From a virus, in IMG/VR virus record IMGVR_UViG_3300047546_003518, positions 1-64,000 of that record: a stretch of 64,000 nt of DNA; one strand, written 5' to 3'. The translations under genes and the position numbers were made by a program. Shown piece after piece: positions 14,440 through 41,023 of the stretch. Each line of letters begins with the position of its first letter. The first letter of the stretch is position 1. The notes below the pieces were generated by a model, which ran no database searches, was not told the origin of the DNA, and was given only the letters and a program-made list of their open reading frames with translations.

Positions 14440-14443
14440 CACT

Positions 14444-14471
14444 AAGAAAGCCCACCGAAGTGGGCTTTCTT
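14444..14471 (-). terminator. tmRNA terminator hairpin
   Basis: Twelve-base-pair stem AAGAAAGCCCAC/GTGGGCTTTCTT with, in the minus-strand RNA, an exceptionally stable UUCG tetraloop. It marks the 3' end of the permuted tmRNA precursor. Confidence 0.8.
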
Positions 14472-14748
14472 GGTTTGTTGGGTTACAAGGCCTTTCCTGC
14501 CCCGCTGGGTTACGCCGCTAGGCGTAGATCCTCAGAGTAATAATTGTCGTTTGCAATTATTGAGTTTGCTTGATTTAGGGTCATCGCCTACCCTGCTGTC
14601 CACTTCAATACTCATTGCCCTGTCGATCCTAGTTCAGGCCCATCATAAGCATATTAGTTGTATCCATTTGTCCAATATGCTTATGGTGGACCTGGCCGGT
14701 ACTGCCCCGGCGTCCAGAACACCTTTTTCGTTGCTTCATACAGCAATA
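14472..14748 (-). ncRNA. ssrA: Circularly permuted (two-piece) tmRNA
   Basis: Minus-strand order is acceptor piece, intervening segment, coding piece. The acceptor piece (about 14748-14684) ends in a 5-bp T stem GCCGG/CCGGC with loop GGCAGTA, as in permuted tmRNAs, then CAGGTCC, A and CCA. The coding piece starts at 14641 with GGGCCTG, which pairs with CAGGTCC and gives a G3-U70 pair for alanine charging, followed by the tmRNA-like GGATCGACAGGG. CAGGGCA can pair with TGTTCTG of the acceptor piece as helix P2. The tag frame 14554-14510 encodes ANDNYYSEDLRLAA and TAA. The intervening segment 14642-14683 folds as an 11-bp perfect hairpin. The 3' end of the coding piece is approximate. Rescues stalled ribosomes and tags their products for proteolysis. 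Confidence 0.93.
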
Positions 14749-14754
14749 AAGATA

Positions 14755-14783
14755 TTTATACTACAGTTGCCTAGTATTGTCAA
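14755..14783 (-). promoter_or_regulatory. tmRNA promoter, TTGACA-17-TATAAA
   Basis: Consensus -35, 17-bp spacer and TATAAA on the minus strand, placing the transcription start near 14748 at the head of the acceptor piece. Confidence 0.85.
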
Positions 14784-14827
14784 GTTAGCTATTTTTCAAA
14801 AGGCCAACCAGATAATGTGGGTTAGGG

Positions 14828-23987: not shown

Positions 23988-24325
23988 AGTCCTAGTTCCT
24001 TCATTGCTGCGGCAGTTGCATCTTTGCTGATTTCAATCTTGTTTAGTTCTGCTTGATCTTGTGTATCTGCCGAAGGAACTGTTGTCAGTGTAATTTCGTC
24101 GTTATTAACATCAGAAATTAGTTTATCATTTTTTGCCTTGAATGTGGCCACTAGTTCTCGTATAGCATTGACCTGACCACCAGCACTGAAACCCATTTTG
24201 TTCAATGAGGCAATCATGTCTTTCATCAGAATTTTAGACTGGCCTTGATTCTGACCACGAATGATCAGCATCTTTACAGCATTAGCAAAACCCTGATCAG
24301 CTTTAACTAGTTCAAGCAGCGTCAC
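23984..24325 (-). CDS. Small helical phage protein, unknown function
   Basis: 113 residues from a GTG at 24325 (GGGAG 7 bases upstream). An alternative GTG at 24364 would overlap the previous gene by about 50 bases. Mostly helical (LLELVKADQGFANAVKML), no motif recognised. Coupled to genes on both sides. Confidence 0.6.
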   Translation of the reverse strand: MTLLELVKADQGFANAVKMLIIRGQNQGQSKILMKDMIASLNKMGFSAGGQVNAIRELVATFKAKNDKLISDVNNDEITLTTVPSADTQDQAELNKIEISKDATAAAMKELGL

Positions 24326-24935
24326 TCTTAATCTCCCGTCCAGTGGCTTCGGCTTCTGGGCCACTACTACTTGGGAAGATAGGAGCCGCTGCGGCGTCAG
24401 CAGCAGGTGCTGCCGGCTCGGCTGCTGGTGCTGGTCCAGTCAATCCTGAAATAGCGCCATCTAGGCTGTCTTTGGTTTGTGTTAGGGTATCAATTGCACC
24501 TTCTAGTGCAGTCTTGACTGTTTGTGCATATTGTTCACCAGCAGCATCACCAAAGCGAGCTTTGATTTGATCTACTAAAGTAATCATGTCGCTGCCTAGC
24601 ATGTCAGCAACATCTTCAATCATGGATTGAAATTCGTTATTCATTGCACGGGCAGCGATGACAACTTCTGCTTGCTCAATATTTTCGTCGTCTAAATCAG
24701 CTTCAAAGATTACCGCATCAACTTTGGCCATATCTTCGTAGATTTCTCTGTGAAGGATTGCCCTAGTATATGCTTCACCGCCCTTACTGGCCAGTGTGTC
24801 AATTTCTTCGTTTACACGTTGAAGTTCTTCGCGTAGGCGACGGCCACCTAGATCAGCTACTTCAATGCTTTCTTTACGCAAAGCCTTTTTTGCTGCCTGG
24901 GCCGGATTGGTTGATGTAATATCGTTAAATTTCAT
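24312..24935 (-). CDS. Helical phage protein with Ala/Pro tail, unknown function
   Basis: 207 residues. Residues 1-150 are predicted long helices (LREELQRVNEEIDTLASK), followed by an Ala/Pro-rich flexible segment (about 155-190). A TAAATA late motif and a GGAGAA site precede the ATG, so it is expressed late; a virion or scaffold role is likely but unproven. Confidence 0.65.
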   Translation of the reverse strand: MKFNDITSTNPAQAAKKALRKESIEVADLGGRRLREELQRVNEEIDTLASKGGEAYTRAILHREIYEDMAKVDAVIFEADLDDENIEQAEVVIAARAMNNEFQSMIEDVADMLGSDMITLVDQIKARFGDAAGEQYAQTVKTALEGAIDTLTQTKDSLDGAISGLTGPAPAAEPAAPAADAAAAPIFPSSSGPEAEATGREIKSDAA

Positions 24936-24952: not shown

Positions 24953-24958
24953 TATTTA
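24953..24958 (-). promoter_or_regulatory. Late promoter motif CTAAATAG
   Basis: About 17 bases before the ATG at 24935 and overlapping the stop of the basic-protein gene. Confidence 0.5.
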
Positions 24959-25222
24959 GCGTCTTCTTTTGTTTAATCTGGTTACTCTTTTGCTCAAAGG
25001 ATTAAACTTTTTGGTTCTTCTGGTTTTCATGATAATGCGGCCACGCATCCTAGCTTTGGTACGCTTAAACTGCATCCTCTTTTTAATGTCAACTTTTTTA
25101 CTGCAACTACTAGCAGAACTTACAACTCTACCTTTGCGTCGTCCAGAAGTACAACGCACTTTTCTAGCTATTTTTTTGCCTTTACGGGCCCATACAATCT
25201 TGGCTTCTACTACTATTTTCAT
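24956..25222 (-). CDS. Small, extremely basic DNA-binding-like protein
   Basis: 88 residues, over one third Lys or Arg, with runs such as RGRIIMKTRRTKK and NKRRR at the end and two or three Cys. The composition is protamine-like. A role in coating or condensing packaged phage DNA, or in ejected virion content, is plausible from composition and from its place among virion-associated genes; no family is recognised. It overlaps the upstream gene by 4 bases. Confidence 0.7.
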   Translation of the reverse strand: MKIVVEAKIVWARKGKKIARKVRCTSGRRKGRVVSSASSCSKKVDIKKRMQFKRTKARMRGRIIMKTRRTKKFNPLSKRVTRLNKRRR

Positions 25223-26852: not shown

Positions 26853-29800
26853 TTACTTTTTCATAAACACAGGACGATTAACTAATTTAATTTTACCGTG
26901 CGGTGTATCTGCCACAAAGCCTTCGTGCCCTGACTGGCCTTTAACTGTTGCAAGCACAGAGTTATTCTGACTAGCGTGTGCATCTAGCTGAGCCTTGAGT
27001 AGATATTTTAAATTAACCAAAGCATTGGCCAATTTAAATACTGCGTCAAACCCAGCCTTGTTCTTTTCTAAATGTGCCATGACATTTTGTAACTTGTTGG
27101 CTGTCAGCTTACTGTCTGGACTGTTCAGCCAGTTAAGGAATTCTTGTTGGACAAATCCATCCTTGCCTTGGTAAGCTTTAAAATTCAAGAAGCTCTTGAA
27201 AATATCTGGTAGGTTAGAAATTTTCATTGAGCTAACAGTCATGTTATCCAGCAAGCGATCAATGGCTGGACCCTTGGATTGAATAAACTGTTGTACTTTT
27301 TCAATGTCGGCCTTGGGCAATTCAAATGCCTCAGATCTCACCTGCATCACTGGACTCAGTACCATTAAGCCTGGACTTGTTTTCAATGATTCAATTTCTG
27401 CAGGAGACATTGCTCTAGGCTCTTCTTCGGTTTTATCAGAGAAGTAGCTGTGTACCACAATACCAGCTTGACTCTTTTTAATCTTCTTACCTAGGTCACT
27501 GCTGGCATCAATGGTGTACTTTACCTTGAGAGGTTGAATCTCAAATACGCCGTTGTGTTCTTCCAGTGGATTCATCCACATCACATCGCCTTGAATAAAT
27601 CCACGGAATTTAACTGGTACCATCTTTTCCAACATAGGGAATAGTTTGGCCAACTGTGTGGAATACTCAAGTCTACCTGGCTCGTCGGGCTTGCGATTGT
27701 ACAGCATATCTCTAAACATTGTGCTACTGCGAGCCATACCATCATATTTCTTGGCACCAAATCCTGACTTATCTGTTAGAATAAATCCCTGATCATCTCG
27801 ACCAAATATAATAGCAGGAGTTCCGTCCCATTTGACTGTGGCTGTACTTGGATTCTTTGCAGTATGAACAATGGCCTCTAATGCACGACGGGCACCGGCT
27901 GAACCTTCTTCAAAAACTAGATCTTCAGGATGGTCGATGCGAGCCTTTGCTTCAGTGAGCATTACCTGCTGACGACCACGAGCAACCGCTTCTGTCAAAG
28001 ATTTTTTGACGACTTGTACACTTTCTTTAGGTGCAGGTGTTGCTTCTGCTTTAGAAATGAGAGCTTGTAATCTGGCCTTTACATCATCTGGCAGCGCACC
28101 GCCTTTGTCTTTGAATGCTTTTACATTTGCTGCTAGATTTTTAAGAGCAGCCGGTTCAGCAGAAGTTGGTGTAGTTGATGTAGTTGTTGTGGCTGTGGTG
28201 TCGCTGGTTGGAGTGGTTGTTGTAGTAGGAGTTGTTGGCTCTGTTGTTGGAGTAGTTGATGTAGTAGTTGCAGTGGTATCAGCTGACTTGCCGTCAGCTG
28301 GTTTAGTATCAGTTGGTGTTCCCTCGCCAGACTTTGTATCATCTTTCTTTGGTGGACTGACTCGTTTGACATTCTGTGTTGGTGCTGCGTGGCCTAAGAC
28401 TTCGTATGTTTTTGCCACTATTGCTGAATCAACTCCTTGCCCAGTCAAAAAGTCATGTAAATCTTCACTGTCCATTGGACTGCCGGCCTTTTCCCAAGCC
28501 TGTCTAAGTTTATCTGCTGTTACCTTATTGGTAATATTGCCACCCTTGACTGCAAGCTTTTGCAACAACTTGCTGGCACTGGTTTGGATTTGAGTTAGTA
28601 CTGCTGGATTTTCATAGATATACTGAATAGCTTCAAACACGGCAAATTGCTTACCCGGAGCAAGCCTTCTGCTTTCCAAGGTGAATAATTTTTTAGCACT
28701 ATCCTTGTCGATGAACAACCTATGCACTTTCCTTGATGTGTCGCGCTGTATGTTATTCACTCGATCTGTTGATGGATCATCGATGATTCTGTCAAAGAGG
28801 GCGCCGCCTAATAATTCCCATTCTTTGCCGGCTTCACCAGTCCATTGAGCACTACTTGGATCACCAGCGGCACCAAACTGAACAATGTCACCAACCTTGC
28901 GATTACCTGGTCCGCTTTTTTCTTTGTCCTTCTCTGTGTCAAACGCTGTGCCCTTTTCTTCTGGCTTTTCAGCGTCTTTTTTGTCACCAGGCATGGCAGA
29001 TGCGGCTGCGGCTGCGCCTTGTCCAAGTGCAATTATGGCATCACCAACACCATTAATACCGTCTCGTACTGTGTCAAAGACAGCAACATTAGATAGTGTC
29101 TCACCGGACTGCTGAGCTGCCGCTGCCAATTTGGCTGCATACTCTGCTGTACTGACTTCGGCTAACTTTGCATAAAAGGCCTGATGTGCTGATGCAAAGG
29201 CTGCGGCATCTCTTTCTGCTGATTGAAATACTTGGTCTCTTAGGTTGTCCAGTACTTCATAGTCAGCTTTAAACATTGGCATGTTGCTGACATCAATATA
29301 AGAACGACCGTTGACTTCTACCATCATGTTCACATCACCAATAACATCATTTACTGGTGTAATGTTTGTGGTAATCTTATAGATATCAGCAATGCGGTCA
29401 AATACTGCCAAGATGCCGTCCTTGACCAATTCTAGGGCCTGACCTGCCAACCAAGTAATGGCATAAGTCTTAAGACCTCGTCCAACTGCGGTAGATAGCT
29501 TTTCGCCTTTGACTAGTTCTAAAGCACTTCTAAGCACAAGTGCAACAACTGTACCAGCTGCTGGACTACCAGCAATGCTGGCAATCACTGTCATTAAACC
29601 AATTACGGCTGCTGAAGTACCTGGGTTATCTTTGGCCCATTGTCCTAAGCTGTTAATACCCTTCATGACTCTGCTATCGTCGCCCAAAGAGGTCTTAATA
29701 GTTTTTTTCAGTTTTTCAAATTTTTGATCTGCGGCTTGGACTGGAGTGGTTGTTTGTAGCCATTCGCCAAACTGATCTGCAATCTTGTTTGCTTCTTTGG

Positions 29801-30077
29801 CATAATCAACGCCTTTACCAATTAGTGTTCTATTGTTACCAGCGGCTACTGCGCCACTTTCAATACCTTGAAAAATCTGATCAACTTGTGCCTTGGTCAG
29901 CGGTGCTTCCGTCAGCATTGCATGAATCAGTGGAGTAAATTGATTGTATATGTAATTTACAACTCTGGTTTGATCTTCAGTGAGGCCACTAACTGACTCA
30001 GCAAGAATTTGTCTGCTATACACAAGTCCTTCATAAAGCTTTTGTCGTTGTACTGTGTTGACTTCTTTTAATTTCAT
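26853..30077 (-). CDS. Giant virion-associated protein with C-terminal KxDG nucleotidyltransferase-like domain
   Basis: 1,074 residues. N-terminal 350 residues are helical with a hydrophobic stretch (about 155-185). A Thr/Pro low-complexity linker occupies about 600-640. From about 710 on, ATVKWDGTPAIIFG (KWDG 749-752) with GFIQGDVMWMNP and GIVVHSY resembles motifs I, III and IV of covalent nucleotidyltransferases (DNA/RNA ligases). L-x-E|A/S sites like those cut by T4 prohead protease gp21 occur at LAE|S (25-28), LTE|A (55-58), LTE|A (694-697) and LTE|A (707-710); the last two would free the ligase-like domain. It may be packaged in the head and ejected with DNA. Function inferred. Confidence 0.6.
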   Translation of the reverse strand: MKLKEVNTVQRQKLYEGLVYSRQILAESVSGLTEDQTRVVNYIYNQFTPLIHAMLTEAPLTKAQVDQIFQGIESGAVAAGNNRTLIGKGVDYAKEANKIADQFGEWLQTTTPVQAADQKFEKLKKTIKTSLGDDSRVMKGINSLGQWAKDNPGTSAAVIGLMTVIASIAGSPAAGTVVALVLRSALELVKGEKLSTAVGRGLKTYAITWLAGQALELVKDGILAVFDRIADIYKITTNITPVNDVIGDVNMMVEVNGRSYIDVSNMPMFKADYEVLDNLRDQVFQSAERDAAAFASAHQAFYAKLAEVSTAEYAAKLAAAAQQSGETLSNVAVFDTVRDGINGVGDAIIALGQGAAAAASAMPGDKKDAEKPEEKGTAFDTEKDKEKSGPGNRKVGDIVQFGAAGDPSSAQWTGEAGKEWELLGGALFDRIIDDPSTDRVNNIQRDTSRKVHRLFIDKDSAKKLFTLESRRLAPGKQFAVFEAIQYIYENPAVLTQIQTSASKLLQKLAVKGGNITNKVTADKLRQAWEKAGSPMDSEDLHDFLTGQGVDSAIVAKTYEVLGHAAPTQNVKRVSPPKKDDTKSGEGTPTDTKPADGKSADTTATTTSTTPTTEPTTPTTTTTPTSDTTATTTTSTTPTSAEPAALKNLAANVKAFKDKGGALPDDVKARLQALISKAEATPAPKESVQVVKKSLTEAVARGRQQVMLTEAKARIDHPEDLVFEEGSAGARRALEAIVHTAKNPSTATVKWDGTPAIIFGRDDQGFILTDKSGFGAKKYDGMARSSTMFRDMLYNRKPDEPGRLEYSTQLAKLFPMLEKMVPVKFRGFIQGDVMWMNPLEEHNGVFEIQPLKVKYTIDASSDLGKKIKKSQAGIVVHSYFSDKTEEEPRAMSPAEIESLKTSPGLMVLSPVMQVRSEAFELPKADIEKVQQFIQSKGPAIDRLLDNMTVSSMKISNLPDIFKSFLNFKAYQGKDGFVQQEFLNWLNSPDSKLTANKLQNVMAHLEKNKAGFDAVFKLANALVNLKYLLKAQLDAHASQNNSVLATVKGQSGHEGFVADTPHGKIKLVNRPVFMKK
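28140..28290. repeat. Low-complexity Thr/Pro codon run
   Basis: Near-continuous ACA/ACT/ACC/CCA-type codons encoding the Thr/Pro linker of the giant protein; reads as GTT/GTA repeats on the plus strand and creates a spurious Val-rich plus-strand frame. Confidence 0.8.
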
Positions 30078-31258
30078 TTCATTAATTCCTTGAGTATAGC
30101 TAACTGTTCGGGTGTAATTGTTCCACCAGAGGCCAAATGTTTTTCCAACTCCTCAACGAATTTTCCTGCATCATCAAGTGGGTTGGCTTCTGGCTCTCCG
30201 GGTGCAGTAGGAGCAGTAGGAGCAGGAGCAGATCCGTACTTGCTTTGATCAAGCATCTTGATCACAGTTCTAGCCCATTCTGTGTACAAGTTTAAAGATT
30301 GTTGTGGCTTTCTTCCTGTGGCTGCTTCATCAGCTGCCAATTGTAACCAAATTTTAAATTGTCCTTGTACGGCTTCTGTTACGGAATTAATTACTGCATT
30401 TAATGGGTCTGATTGAATGCCTGTCGGATTATGCTGTGATAAAAATCTCTTATACTCACCAGGAGTCAAAATAACTGGTGTTTTTGATATCAACTCAGTT
30501 AGTTGAGCAGCAGTCATTACCGCATATCTCTTTCTAATACGCTCATTGAGATAATGAACAATGATTAAGTTTTTAATGTTGTCTATGAAATCTTGATTCT
30601 GCTTTAGTCCGTTTGCTGGATCTAATAGAATATCTAATATCTGTGCGCCAAGCTCTTCAAATTTTTGCTTGAGTTCAGGATCCATTTTAAATGGTGTTTC
30701 GCTTAGATCCTCGCCAGTGGCTATGATAGTGGCTGCGGCAAGAGACAAGCAAATACCGTCAAGTGCCTTTTCATATTTTAAGTTTTCAATGGCTGTTGCT
30801 TCGGCTCCGCCAGCCACCTGTACAATTGCGTCAACAATGGCATTTACTCCGCCACCGGCCACAGTAACCACAGAACGCTTGTTGTTTTTAATAAGCTCGG
30901 CAATTTGAGCAGCACTCACAGGATCTGAACTAGTTGTGCCAGCGGCTGTGGCTGTGCCGGTTTCTTTAGACGATACTGCTTCGGCAGATTTCAACCCAAG
31001 CTTGATCATTGCAGTTAAAGGCAACGGTACTTGATCTCTTTGTATCTTGGCAAAGTTTTGTCCGGCTTGCTTGCGAAGCTCGCCTACCAGACCCACTTCA
31101 ATAGCATCAGCTAGTTTCTTTAATGCGGCACCTTCGCCTTGTAAACTTCTAATAAAGCCGGTAATACCGTCGCCGCCGGACATACCAATTGCTTTACCTA
31201 CTAGGTTATCAATAAAGCCTTCTTCAAGTGGTGTGCGTTTTAACTCAGTTACTTTCAC
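30074..31258 (-). CDS. Helical virion-associated protein with prohead-protease-like site
   Basis: 394 residues, mainly helical with Ala/Gly-rich segments and a Pro/Ala linker near residue 345 (APAPTAPTAPGEPEAN). Near the start, TPLEEGFIDN contains LEE|G (11-14), the consensus cleaved by T4 gp21, which would remove a 13-residue propeptide. Its 3' end overlaps the giant protein gene by 4 bases. Probably an internal head protein; not recognised by family. Confidence 0.6.
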   Translation of the reverse strand: MKVTELKRTPLEEGFIDNLVGKAIGMSGGDGITGFIRSLQGEGAALKKLADAIEVGLVGELRKQAGQNFAKIQRDQVPLPLTAMIKLGLKSAEAVSSKETGTATAAGTTSSDPVSAAQIAELIKNNKRSVVTVAGGGVNAIVDAIVQVAGGAEATAIENLKYEKALDGICLSLAAATIIATGEDLSETPFKMDPELKQKFEELGAQILDILLDPANGLKQNQDFIDNIKNLIIVHYLNERIRKRYAVMTAAQLTELISKTPVILTPGEYKRFLSQHNPTGIQSDPLNAVINSVTEAVQGQFKIWLQLAADEAATGRKPQQSLNLYTEWARTVIKMLDQSKYGSAPAPTAPTAPGEPEANPLDDAGKFVEELEKHLASGGTITPEQLAILKELMK

Positions 31259-34642: not shown

Positions 34643-34671
34643 AGTTTACACTCTAATTAGGATTTTGTCAA
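34643..34671 (-). promoter_or_regulatory. Sigma-70-like promoter, TTGACA-17-TAAACT
   Basis: Drives the primase-helicase operon; predicted start lies about 3 bases before the primase ATG. It overlaps the end of the structural gene upstream. Confidence 0.75.
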
Positions 34672-35443
34672 GAGTTCCAGCGTTGCTTGAGCTGTCGGCG
34701 CGAACAGTTCTTAACCAACGAACACTACCATAATAGTTGTATGGGTCAATGCCAGTATAGCCAGTGAGTGTTAGTATAGGCGAACTGGCATCTTGTGGCT
34801 TTAGGTCTGCCCAAAGAGTGTTTCCGGTCACCACCTCATCCAGTGTGCCTTGTATTTTGACGGTGCCAGTATAGTTGGTTGCGTACAAGGCCACCGAAAA
34901 CAGACTCGAATCTTTGCGATAAAAACTGGGTCCGTTTACAGCACTGGAAAAATAATTGCCGCCGGAGTTAGTCCAAGAGTCAACTGCAACTGTGGTTCTG
35001 CTAGTTGGAATTACTTCGTCTTTGATTTCAATGTCAAATCCAGCTTGCATTGCTCTATTCCAAGTTAGGGCAGTTTCTAAACCGTTGCCATCAACAAAGG
35101 TAGCACCTAACTTGTAAATTCCGCTGGGTGTGGTCATTAAATCTCTGGCAAAAACAGTTAGTCTGGCTTGTCCATTTTCTGGAACGGTGGCAATAGCTCG
35201 GCGTCGAAAAATTGTAGTTCCTGTTGTGGTATCCCATAGGGTGACTGTTAATTCTTTATTCAATAAACTTACAGGTCTACGATCTGTTCCTGTAACGGTA
35301 AGATCTAATAGATTATCCACACCTTTAAACCAAACTATGCGTTGATCAGTGTAGCTCGGTGCATGTCGTGTCAGACTATGCCCGGTGCCCGCACCAGCGT
35401 AGTTAAGAGAAGCTGTTGGAATAGTTGTGTTTAAAGTAGCCAT
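34646..35443 (-). CDS. Putative virion structural protein, baseplate-like
   Basis: 265 residues from the ATG at 35443. All-beta pattern with an N-terminal segment (VWFKGVDNLLDLTV...LTVTLWDTTTG...IFRRRAIATVPENGQARLTV) resembling receptor-binding or baseplate-upper-protein N-terminal domains, and a second beta domain with VKIQGTLDE. The ATG at 35443 is preferred to 35458 because TAAATA ends exactly 5 bases before it, as for other late genes. Embedded between replication genes but with its own late promoter. Confidence 0.6.
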   Translation of the reverse strand: MATLNTTIPTASLNYAGAGTGHSLTRHAPSYTDQRIVWFKGVDNLLDLTVTGTDRRPVSLLNKELTVTLWDTTTGTTIFRRRAIATVPENGQARLTVFARDLMTTPSGIYKLGATFVDGNGLETALTWNRAMQAGFDIEIKDEVIPTSRTTVAVDSWTNSGGNYFSSAVNGPSFYRKDSSLFSVALYATNYTGTVKIQGTLDEVVTGNTLWADLKPQDASSPILTLTGYTGIDPYNYYGSVRWLRTVRADSSSNAGTLDKILIRV

Positions 35444-35448
35444 ATCAT

Positions 35449-35454
35449 TATTTA
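35449..35454 (-). promoter_or_regulatory. Late promoter motif CTAAATA
   Basis: Ends 5 bases before the ATG at 35443. Confidence 0.6.
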
Positions 35455-35491
35455 GCATGACCGCTAGACAAATAAAAGGTAAGTAAAGACG

Positions 35492-39918: not shown

Positions 39919-40959
39919 TTAACCGCTAGTCTTTAATAGAAAACGATTTGAAATGGCCTTGAATGAGCACTGAAACTGTTTGCTCTTAAAGACCAGGCCT
40001 TCTCGTTCAGGACCATTGATATCTCCCATTACACTCTTGCCTTCGGCAATCTTTAGCAAGTCAGCAATGGTAGTTGACTTGTCCATTACCAAGGTTCCTA
40101 GCACAGGCACATGAGCAATGCCGTGCTTGGTAACCAATGCCTTTCGCTCCTCAGGAGTAAAATAGCACCCGCGATCAATGTCGTAGATGTCAAACACATA
40201 GTAAGCTTGTCCGCGAAGCTTGTAAGGATTGCCTTGAATGCCTTCTCCTACCAACTCACCTTGCAGGGCAAGATTGCGGCCTTCTGCTCGCAGTTTGCTT
40301 TCTAGATTGTCCTTGACGGCAACCTTCCACAGAGAGTTTTCTGCATTGGGCTTGAGCTCAAGATTGCGACTGCATACACCAAATTCACCGTTGTTAAGAT
40401 ACACGGTCATTGAACTGCCGTCAAGCTTTTCGGTCATTTCCCAAGCATGAGACTCGCTGATCCAATGTGCTAGCTCGCTAGAAAGATTCTGGATACGCTC
40501 CTGATCTGTCTTTTGCAACCAACCAGGAAACAATCCTTTGACTTCCCCGGCAAGCTGAGCCGGAACAGGCGGCTCGTACTTCTTAATTCCTAGAAGCTCG
40601 CTGACATCGAATGGTTCATTGCTGGCCAAGCGAGTCTTATGAAACTCGTTGACCACCGCAGGGTAATCCCAATAATTGAGCAGTAGGCCTTGGCTTAATT
40701 GTCCACGAAGCTTTACAGTACGCAGGCGTTCACCACGTACACCTTCAAACTCGCGAGGCTCCTGTCCTCGGCTAAGGAACGGTGCAAGCTCATGGGGGAT
40801 CCAGCTGTCAATTTCACAGTAGATTGCCACATCCCCGGGCTTGAATTCGCCCTTCTTGGTAACTACTGTCCATCCACCAACTACTGCACACTCAATGGCA
40901 TCCGCACCTTCAATGGGACGGACTTCATCAATTTGTCGCATTGTTGCCATCTTACGCAT
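39919..40959 (-). CDS. RNA ligase, DraRnl/Rnl5-like
   Basis: 346 residues from the ATG at 40959 (GGAG upstream). Nucleotidyltransferase motif I is TEKLDGSS (176-183, lysine 178 is the adenylated residue), followed by VCSRNLE, LQGELVGEG (motif III), YYVFDIYD (IIIa), REGLVFKS (motif IV) and FKAISNRFLL (motif V). The N-terminal 130 residues resemble the OB-like domain of the Deinococcus DraRnl family, which seals nicked RNA. A likely role is repair of tRNAs cut by host defence. Confidence 0.9.
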   Translation of the reverse strand: MRKMATMRQIDEVRPIEGADAIECAVVGGWTVVTKKGEFKPGDVAIYCEIDSWIPHELAPFLSRGQEPREFEGVRGERLRTVKLRGQLSQGLLLNYWDYPAVVNEFHKTRLASNEPFDVSELLGIKKYEPPVPAQLAGEVKGLFPGWLQKTDQERIQNLSSELAHWISESHAWEMTEKLDGSSMTVYLNNGEFGVCSRNLELKPNAENSLWKVAVKDNLESKLRAEGRNLALQGELVGEGIQGNPYKLRGQAYYVFDIYDIDRGCYFTPEERKALVTKHGIAHVPVLGTLVMDKSTTIADLLKIAEGKSVMGDINGPEREGLVFKSKQFQCSFKAISNRFLLKTSG

Positions 40960-41023
40960 TTTAAAACTCCTTATCGAAACGGGTCTTATTGACATTGCCC
41001 GTTACGCACACGGCAGGGGTAAC

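Follow-up and report, generated by a model that had tools for sequence, protein, structure and literature searches.

The 1,074-residue fusion gene

The window analyzed here, the first 64 kb of the 177,701-base virus record IMGVR_UViG_3300047546_003518 (G000), carries on its minus strand a gene for 1,074 amino acids in which a virion-type protein is fused to a domain of the Pfam family DUF6267 (PF19782; also phrog_455 and cyanophage T4-GC71). No function has been assigned to this family, and the literature searched contained no mention of it. We regard it as fairly probable that the product is the precursor of a virion-packaged enzyme, which would be targeted to the prohead, cleaved by a gp21-type protease, and injected. 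The features of the gene are listed below, with arrows marking predicted cleavage points.

26853..30077, minus strand: fusion gene, N-terminal virion-type protein plus DUF6267 ligase-like domain; ATG start; junction frame conserved in contigs L001 and L002
30030..30077, minus strand: predicted N-terminal capsid-targeting leader MKLKEVNTVQRQKLYE, cut before G17; LYE↓G at residues 14-17, conserved in contigs L003 and L004
29994..30005, minus strand: second site, LAE↓S, residues 25-28; conserved in L003 and L004
29904..29915, minus strand: third site, LTE↓A, residues 55-58; conserved in L003 and L004
27999..30029, minus strand: N-terminal region, residues 17-693, helical/hydrophobic virion-type protein with no known fold; homologue in contig L050
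28161..28280, minus strand: Thr/Pro linker, residues 600-639
27987..27998, minus strand: junction site LTE↓A, residues 694-697; also in L002
27948..27959, minus strand: junction site LTE↓A, residues 707-710, immediately preceding the domain; corresponds to the leader end of free relatives
26856..27950, minus strand: DUF6267 domain, residues 710-1074, predicted covalent nucleotidyltransferase of ligase type (Pfam, AlphaFold2, Foldseek)
27822..27833, minus strand: motif I KWDG, with K749 as predicted adenosine monophosphate (AMP)-accepting lysine; K, D, and G invariant in 52 homologues
27585..27593, minus strand: motif III-like QGD; D invariant, G nearly so; beta-strand in the model
26913..26924, minus strand: motif IV EGFV; E, G, and V invariant
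26874..26888, minus strand: motif V-like KLVNR; K, V, and R invariant

The fusion is not an assembly artefact, because an identical copy (100%) of the open reading frame is present in L001 and the junction is spanned in L002 at 90% identity with an unbroken reading frame. A preliminary description of this DNA had noted the long reading frame with its helical/hydrophobic N-terminal part, the Thr/Pro linker, KWDG (residues 749-752), and LTEA at residues 694-697 and 707-710 with further sites near the N terminus. All of these lie where they were placed, and the observation is confirmed more firmly than that description could tell. It missed that the C-terminal domain belongs to a named family with members in hundreds of phage contigs, usually free-standing or joined to a domain resembling family X polymerases (PolX-like), and that the long N-terminal part represents a virion-type protein in its own right, which happens to be fused here.

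The N-terminal region is homologous to a free 805-amino-acid protein of L050 (phmmer, 4e-26), a distant homologue that begins with MSAQHFSRNILTE↓SVW, in support of the LAE↓S site of the window protein, and whose gene is located just upstream of genes for a PolX-like protein and a DUF6267 protein. The N-terminal 690 residues are accordingly a fused virion-type protein and not part of the enzyme; in the window lineage the L050-type virion protein and DUF6267 have been joined. An internal start at Met706 yielding the free domain is possible but not needed; the upstream CAGCAGGTA-ATG provides only a weak ribosome-binding match.

Conserved predicted cleavage sites ahead of DUF6267

The pattern [LI]xE[AGS] occurs five times in the 1,074-residue chain (at 14, 25, 55, 694, and 707), compared with about 1.9 occurrences expected from composition, and none of the five lies in the C-terminal domain. 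This count alone departs only mildly from expectation; what is decisive is that the sites are conserved. In IMG/VR relatives, DUF6267 is a free 384-amino-acid protein starting with MKIFEI....ML[ASV]E↓AKARIDHPED, and the MLTE↓AKARIDHPED of the window protein is therefore a leader remnant preserved where the two proteins are fused. A scan for DUF6267 relatives found 514, of which 80 were kept, and site conservation was assessed in 62 representatives with <80% identity. The motif [LIVM]xE is present no more than 14 residues before the domain in 57/62 of them, compared with 14% of random positions in the same proteins. Of the 57 sites, 37 have L, 15 have I, and 5 have V at P3, whereas P2 is free. 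P1 is E, for which the requirement is unique (the next commonest residue in its place reaches only 17/62 representatives), and P1' is A (30), G (9), or S (7), i.e., A/G/S in 46/57. All 17 fusions and 40 of the 45 standalone proteins carry the site, the leaders of the free proteins mostly comprise 9 to 19 residues, and a leader is also borne by DUF6267 of the cultured Methylophilales phage Melnitz (MLTLINFSKYITE↓D). The adjacent DnaB-like helicase served as a negative control and showed the site in 1 of 34 N termini.

Given this conservation, chance does not account for the LTE↓A that precedes the domain. The preliminary description had related the L-T-E↓A sites to the cleavage pattern of T4 gp21, and this is supported: logo and leader lengths match the published gp21 specificity, L/I-x-E, and the 10 to 19 amino acids of T4 internal-protein propeptides, which are cut after this motif (PMC9026906). 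A genome-wide search for N-terminal [LI]xE[AGS] in the window phage gave a 1.7-fold enrichment (25 versus about 14 expected, with rough gene starts), which is too weak to be used alone.

Partner enzymes and their detection in virions of relatives

At about 55 loci, a PolX-like nucleotidyltransferase (GSTG..SGDxD...VQxD) is encoded adjacent to DUF6267 or fused in front of it. Its structural model (predicted local distance difference test [pLDDT] score, 95.5) matches Pol mu, lambda, beta, and TdT at a probability of 1.00, and [LIVM]xE immediately precedes its conserved GG (LxE↓GG) in 34/35 representatives. The homologue in phage PA5oct, gp253 (8.5e-20 with the L050 protein), is a virion protein according to electrospray ionization tandem mass spectrometry (ESI-MS/MS) and has no leader. 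The 990-residue chain of contig L090 (3918-6887) comprises a leader LNE↓A, DUF6267, PIDE↓G, a PolX-like domain, LITE↓G, and a second PolX-like domain, and from this arrangement it looks like a prohead-protease polyprotein.

In cyanophages, the partner of DUF6267 is a HIGH-type cytidylyltransferase, and contig L041 encodes DUF6267 and a HIGH-type nucleotidyltransferase as one chain, in which SLME↓Q separates the two domains. The cytidylyltransferase of S-SM1, encoded beside DUF6267, begins with MKKFSAFLNE↓A, and that of S-CREM2 with MKNFSSFLTE↓A. The former has been found in virions (PMC3037559), and so has the latter, by authors who caution that carry-over of an abundant cell-expressed protein is possible (PMC10665884). 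These two enzymes are the best experimental anchors for leaders marking packaged proteins.

Further virion-detected enzymes of Synechococcus phage S-CREM2 (L170) have T4-like leaders, namely, an S-adenosylmethionine hydrolase (MKDFDSFLEE), a kinase (MKRFDAFLTEE), and a Cas9-like nuclease (..FASFMAEA), which suggests a packaged anti-defence set. The record G000 itself encodes a HIGH-type nucleotidyltransferase (MKISDLRPRIVAVYAGRFHPFHIGH; 92759-93406, plus strand) without an LxE leader, just before a plus-strand run of large genes.

Fold, motifs, and candidate substrates

The DUF6267 profile matches residues 714-1072 over profile positions 4-368 of 376 (2.6e-35; 122.9 bits versus a cut-off of 27). 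The preliminary description had proposed a nucleotidyltransferase-like C terminus, which is supported by the presence, in order, of the covalent nucleotidyltransferase motifs I (KxDG), III, IV (EGxV), and V and by a confident AlphaFold model (pLDDT, 93.6; predicted template modeling score, 0.87) with a beta-rich core. Invariant across the 52 homologues are K749, D751, and G752 (motif I), D831 (III), E1052, G1053, and V1055 (IV), and K1064 (V). Foldseek comparison against the PDB, a check proposed in that description, placed T4 Rnl1, the Naegleria RNA ligase, archaeal and human DNA ligases, and Rnl3 at the top, with probabilities of at most 0.63, and a viral library returned DNA and RNA ligases at probabilities of 0.1 to 0.97. 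The model furthermore matches PA5oct gp256 at a probability of 1.00 despite 12% identity. This protein carries KIDG/EGYV/VKIVDK and occupies the syntenic slot, in which Phosso and Atu_ph07 encode KLDG proteins. Ligase chemistry of DUF6267 is probable. The DUF6267 domain shares with RNA_ligase (PF09414) and ATP-dependent DNA ligases the order KxDG ... (Q)GD ... EGxV ... K and, in the model, a similar beta-rich core but differs from them in the absence of an oligonucleotide/oligosaccharide-binding (OB) fold, the presence of a helical insert, and an altered motif V. The window protein has no match to PF09414, and neither this model nor any other Pfam ligase model is among the best 25 of the 31 families matched by the 52 members (E <= 1); a sequence search of the PDB gave nothing useful. 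The 34 matches to genome contigs obtained in looking for cellular homologues come nearly all from contigs of metagenome-assembled genomes, which are probably binned phage contigs.

These differences bear on the idea that the domain is packaged and cut free but is not a ligase, adenylylating a protein or small molecule instead or being a catalytically idle structural relative. The model has neither an OB-fold nor the helical domain of Rnl proteins after motif V, a helical insert of about 115 residues lies ahead of motif IV, motif V reads K-x-V-x-R instead of K-x-K, and the co-occurrence with an NMNAT/cytidylyltransferase-like enzyme in cyanophages could mean nucleotide-cofactor chemistry. We nevertheless consider this improbable, since the K, D, and G of motif I and the E, G, and V of motif IV are invariant over 52 divergent members, as active enzymes would show, and a PolX-like partner points to nucleic-acid ends.

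Whether these ends are DNA or RNA is the second issue. The PolX-like partner carries the same cleavage site, and gap filling and sealing of the incoming DNA is therefore the most likely job of the pair and the simplest reading. The chief alternative is a substrate of host or phage RNA: the injected enzyme would reseal tRNAs or other RNAs cut by host defence nucleases, with the PolX-like enzyme or cytidylyltransferase mending the ends. RNA ligases (T4 Rnl1, Naegleria Rnl, archaeal Rnl3, and Trl1) match as often as DNA ligases in the PDB, and the genome carries a separate RNA ligase (window positions 39919-40995) and several tRNAs, so that RNA repair belongs to the biology of this phage. However, the partner model is nearer to family X DNA polymerases than to CCA-adding or other RNA nucleotidyltransferases, and a search of the record for the end-healing phosphatase family PF08645 found none. 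An RNA substrate is a serious possibility, albeit a rather unlikely one.

Genome context

The genes surrounding the fusion encode, in order, a DnaB-like helicase and proteins of 83, 394, 1,074, 261, 136, 97, and 207 amino acids. The following features of this neighborhood and of the T4-type head module are relevant.

30074..31258, minus strand: 394-amino-acid protein encoded next to the fusion gene on its upstream side; leader, MKVTELKRTPLEE↓G; all relatives examined retain LxE↓G, even at 29% identity
31255..31506, minus strand: 83-amino-acid virion protein; phrog_11854 "virion structural protein" (7.8e-16); PA5oct gp259 and CBB_292 are annotated as (virion) structural proteins
24956..25222, minus strand: 88-amino-acid basic protein MKIVVE↓AKIVWARKGKK with the same leader type; homologues have LITE↓A and IMTE↓S leaders
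24312..24935, minus strand: 207-amino-acid neighbour, virion protein family; homologue of PA5oct gp247 (ESI-MS/MS; 1.1e-13)
34646..35458, minus strand: 270-amino-acid neighbour, virion protein family; homologue of PA5oct gp262 (ESI-MS/MS; 2e-17)
80939-82621 (full record): portal, T4-type head module
79191-79733 (full record): gp21-type prohead protease; phrog_207 head maturation protease (1.9e-54)
78068-79180 (full record): scaffold-like protein, T4-type head module
76847-78052 (full record): major capsid protein, T4-type head module

The context for gp21-type processing assumed by the preliminary description is in place, with a gp21-type protease in the genome and neighbours that are annotated or mass spectrometry-confirmed virion proteins in relatives. 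The closest relatives of the scaffold are found in the jumbo-phage clade of PA5oct, CBB-like phages, and Atu_ph07, and the equivalent position behind the helicase of PA5oct is occupied by a run of proteins, many of them marked as virion proteins by ESI-MS/MS. No homology of the N-terminal 690 residues or of the 394-amino-acid neighbour to PA5oct gp257/gp258 was found. A DNA ligase family was not found elsewhere in the 177,701-base record, which may be incomplete.

The 88-amino-acid basic protein and its homologues share a CTSG-RKGR motif and are probably packaged DNA-binding proteins. The window also contains a permuted (two-piece type) transfer-messenger RNA (14443-14797, minus strand; Rfam RF04321, 135.7 bits, overlapping RF01850 beta_tmRNA) with the ARAGORN tag ANDNYYSEDLRLAA; such an RNA is unusual in a phage and hints at a possible betaproteobacterial host.

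Likely packaging and proposed mechanism

Several observations weigh against a packaged ligase-type enzyme. The DUF6267 copies of cyanophages S-PM2, S-WAM1, Syn1, and S-SM1 lack a leader, so that not all members are packaged by the leader route. The PolX-like partner was not found in the 177.7-kb record, PA5oct gp256 is not marked as detected by mass spectrometry in the virion list, and the leaderless DUF6267 of S-SM1 (T4-GC71) is not named among the virion proteins in the main text of PMC3037559. A test for leaders in the S-CREM2 virion proteome was only suggestive, the p value being 0.11 (not significant) with the strict pattern and 0.03 with a post hoc pattern. With respect to the fold, ligases do head the PDB list, but with E-values of about 0.1 or worse and template modeling scores of about 0.2, so that the ligase kinship of DUF6267 is distant, and profile comparison (hhalign) showed no significant similarity to the RNA-ligase family of the phage itself.

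The leaderless cyanophage copies, which start at the domain, together with the location of the gene next to helicase and primase genes and the lack of direct mass spectrometric support for DUF6267 itself, would be expected of an ordinary cytoplasmic replication or repair ligase that never enters the capsid and in which LxE↓A is a conserved N-terminal capping element. Such an element is difficult to reconcile with a motif that fits the gp21 logo and recurs in every fusion and in leaders that vary in length and are otherwise divergent, or with leaderless copies that have the complete fold without LxE↓A. Moreover, the same motif precedes two unrelated families, the PolX-like enzymes and the HIGH-type cytidylyltransferases, and motif-bearing cytidylyltransferases have been detected in virions by mass spectrometry. 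We therefore judge a purely cytoplasmic role to be quite unlikely, and packaging is likely.

For the packaged precursor, the following course is proposed. The N-terminal and junction L-x-E↓A/G/S sequences would carry it into the prohead core in the manner of T4 capsid-targeting sequences, where the gp21-type protease would cut after E16, E27, and E57 and after E696 and E709, parting a virion-type protein of about 690 residues from a DUF6267 domain of about 365 residues. The freed domain would act as a covalent nucleotidyltransferase of the ligase type, loading AMP onto K749, and we infer that it may be ejected with the genome and act early on nucleic-acid ends, before phage gene expression. 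The interpretation given in the preliminary description is supported to this extent, with three of its four claims holding computationally, whereas injection and early action go beyond them.

Precedents for this route are known. T4 internal head proteins IPI-III and the enzyme Alt possess a leader that gp21 cuts in the prohead, and their mature parts are packaged and injected (PMC9026906, PMC9958956). DUF6267 relatives resemble them in the short N-terminal leader ending with L/I-x-E, but the cargo is here a ligase-type nucleotidyltransferase, and sites are also located between the domains of fusions, unlike in the T4 proteins described. Ejection proteins of SPN3US and phiKZ have propeptides, some with multiple sites, that are removed in the head before the cargo is ejected (PMC10052503); the SPN3US sites shown conform to A-x-E, and the cargo is unrelated to DUF6267. 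Compared with DUF6267 as defined in Pfam, the window member is distinguished by its fusion to a virion-type protein with a cleavage site in between, and the partner, although related to family X polymerases by its GSTG..SGDxD...VQxD motifs and predicted fold, comprises only about 226 residues and lacks the lyase/8-kDa and BRCT parts.

Implications

Packaged enzymes matured by gp21 are already known from T4 Alt. As far as shown by the literature searched, the type of enzyme, the breadth of the family, the pairing with a PolX-like partner, and a cleavage site that serves to delimit fused enzyme domains are new. It is tentatively proposed, as something that may well prove wrong, that many T4-superfamily phages package and inject a ready-made end-repair kit of a DUF6267 ligase-type enzyme and a family X-type polymerase, often made as one precursor from which the prohead protease releases the separate enzymes in the capsid. 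A virion-borne pair that fills and seals gaps would, if true, be a new answer to the question of how a genome is protected before phage genes act.

DUF6267, a family without assigned function that is present in hundreds of phage contigs, now has a testable role, and the [LI]xE boundary rule offers a simple means of predicting injected proteins and their exact mature ends from sequence alone. Our observations suggest that the capsid-targeting signal known from T4 serves T4-superfamily phages as a general and modular means of delivering enzymes together with their DNA and that DUF6267 phages may inject ready-made nucleic-acid-joining enzymes along with this DNA.

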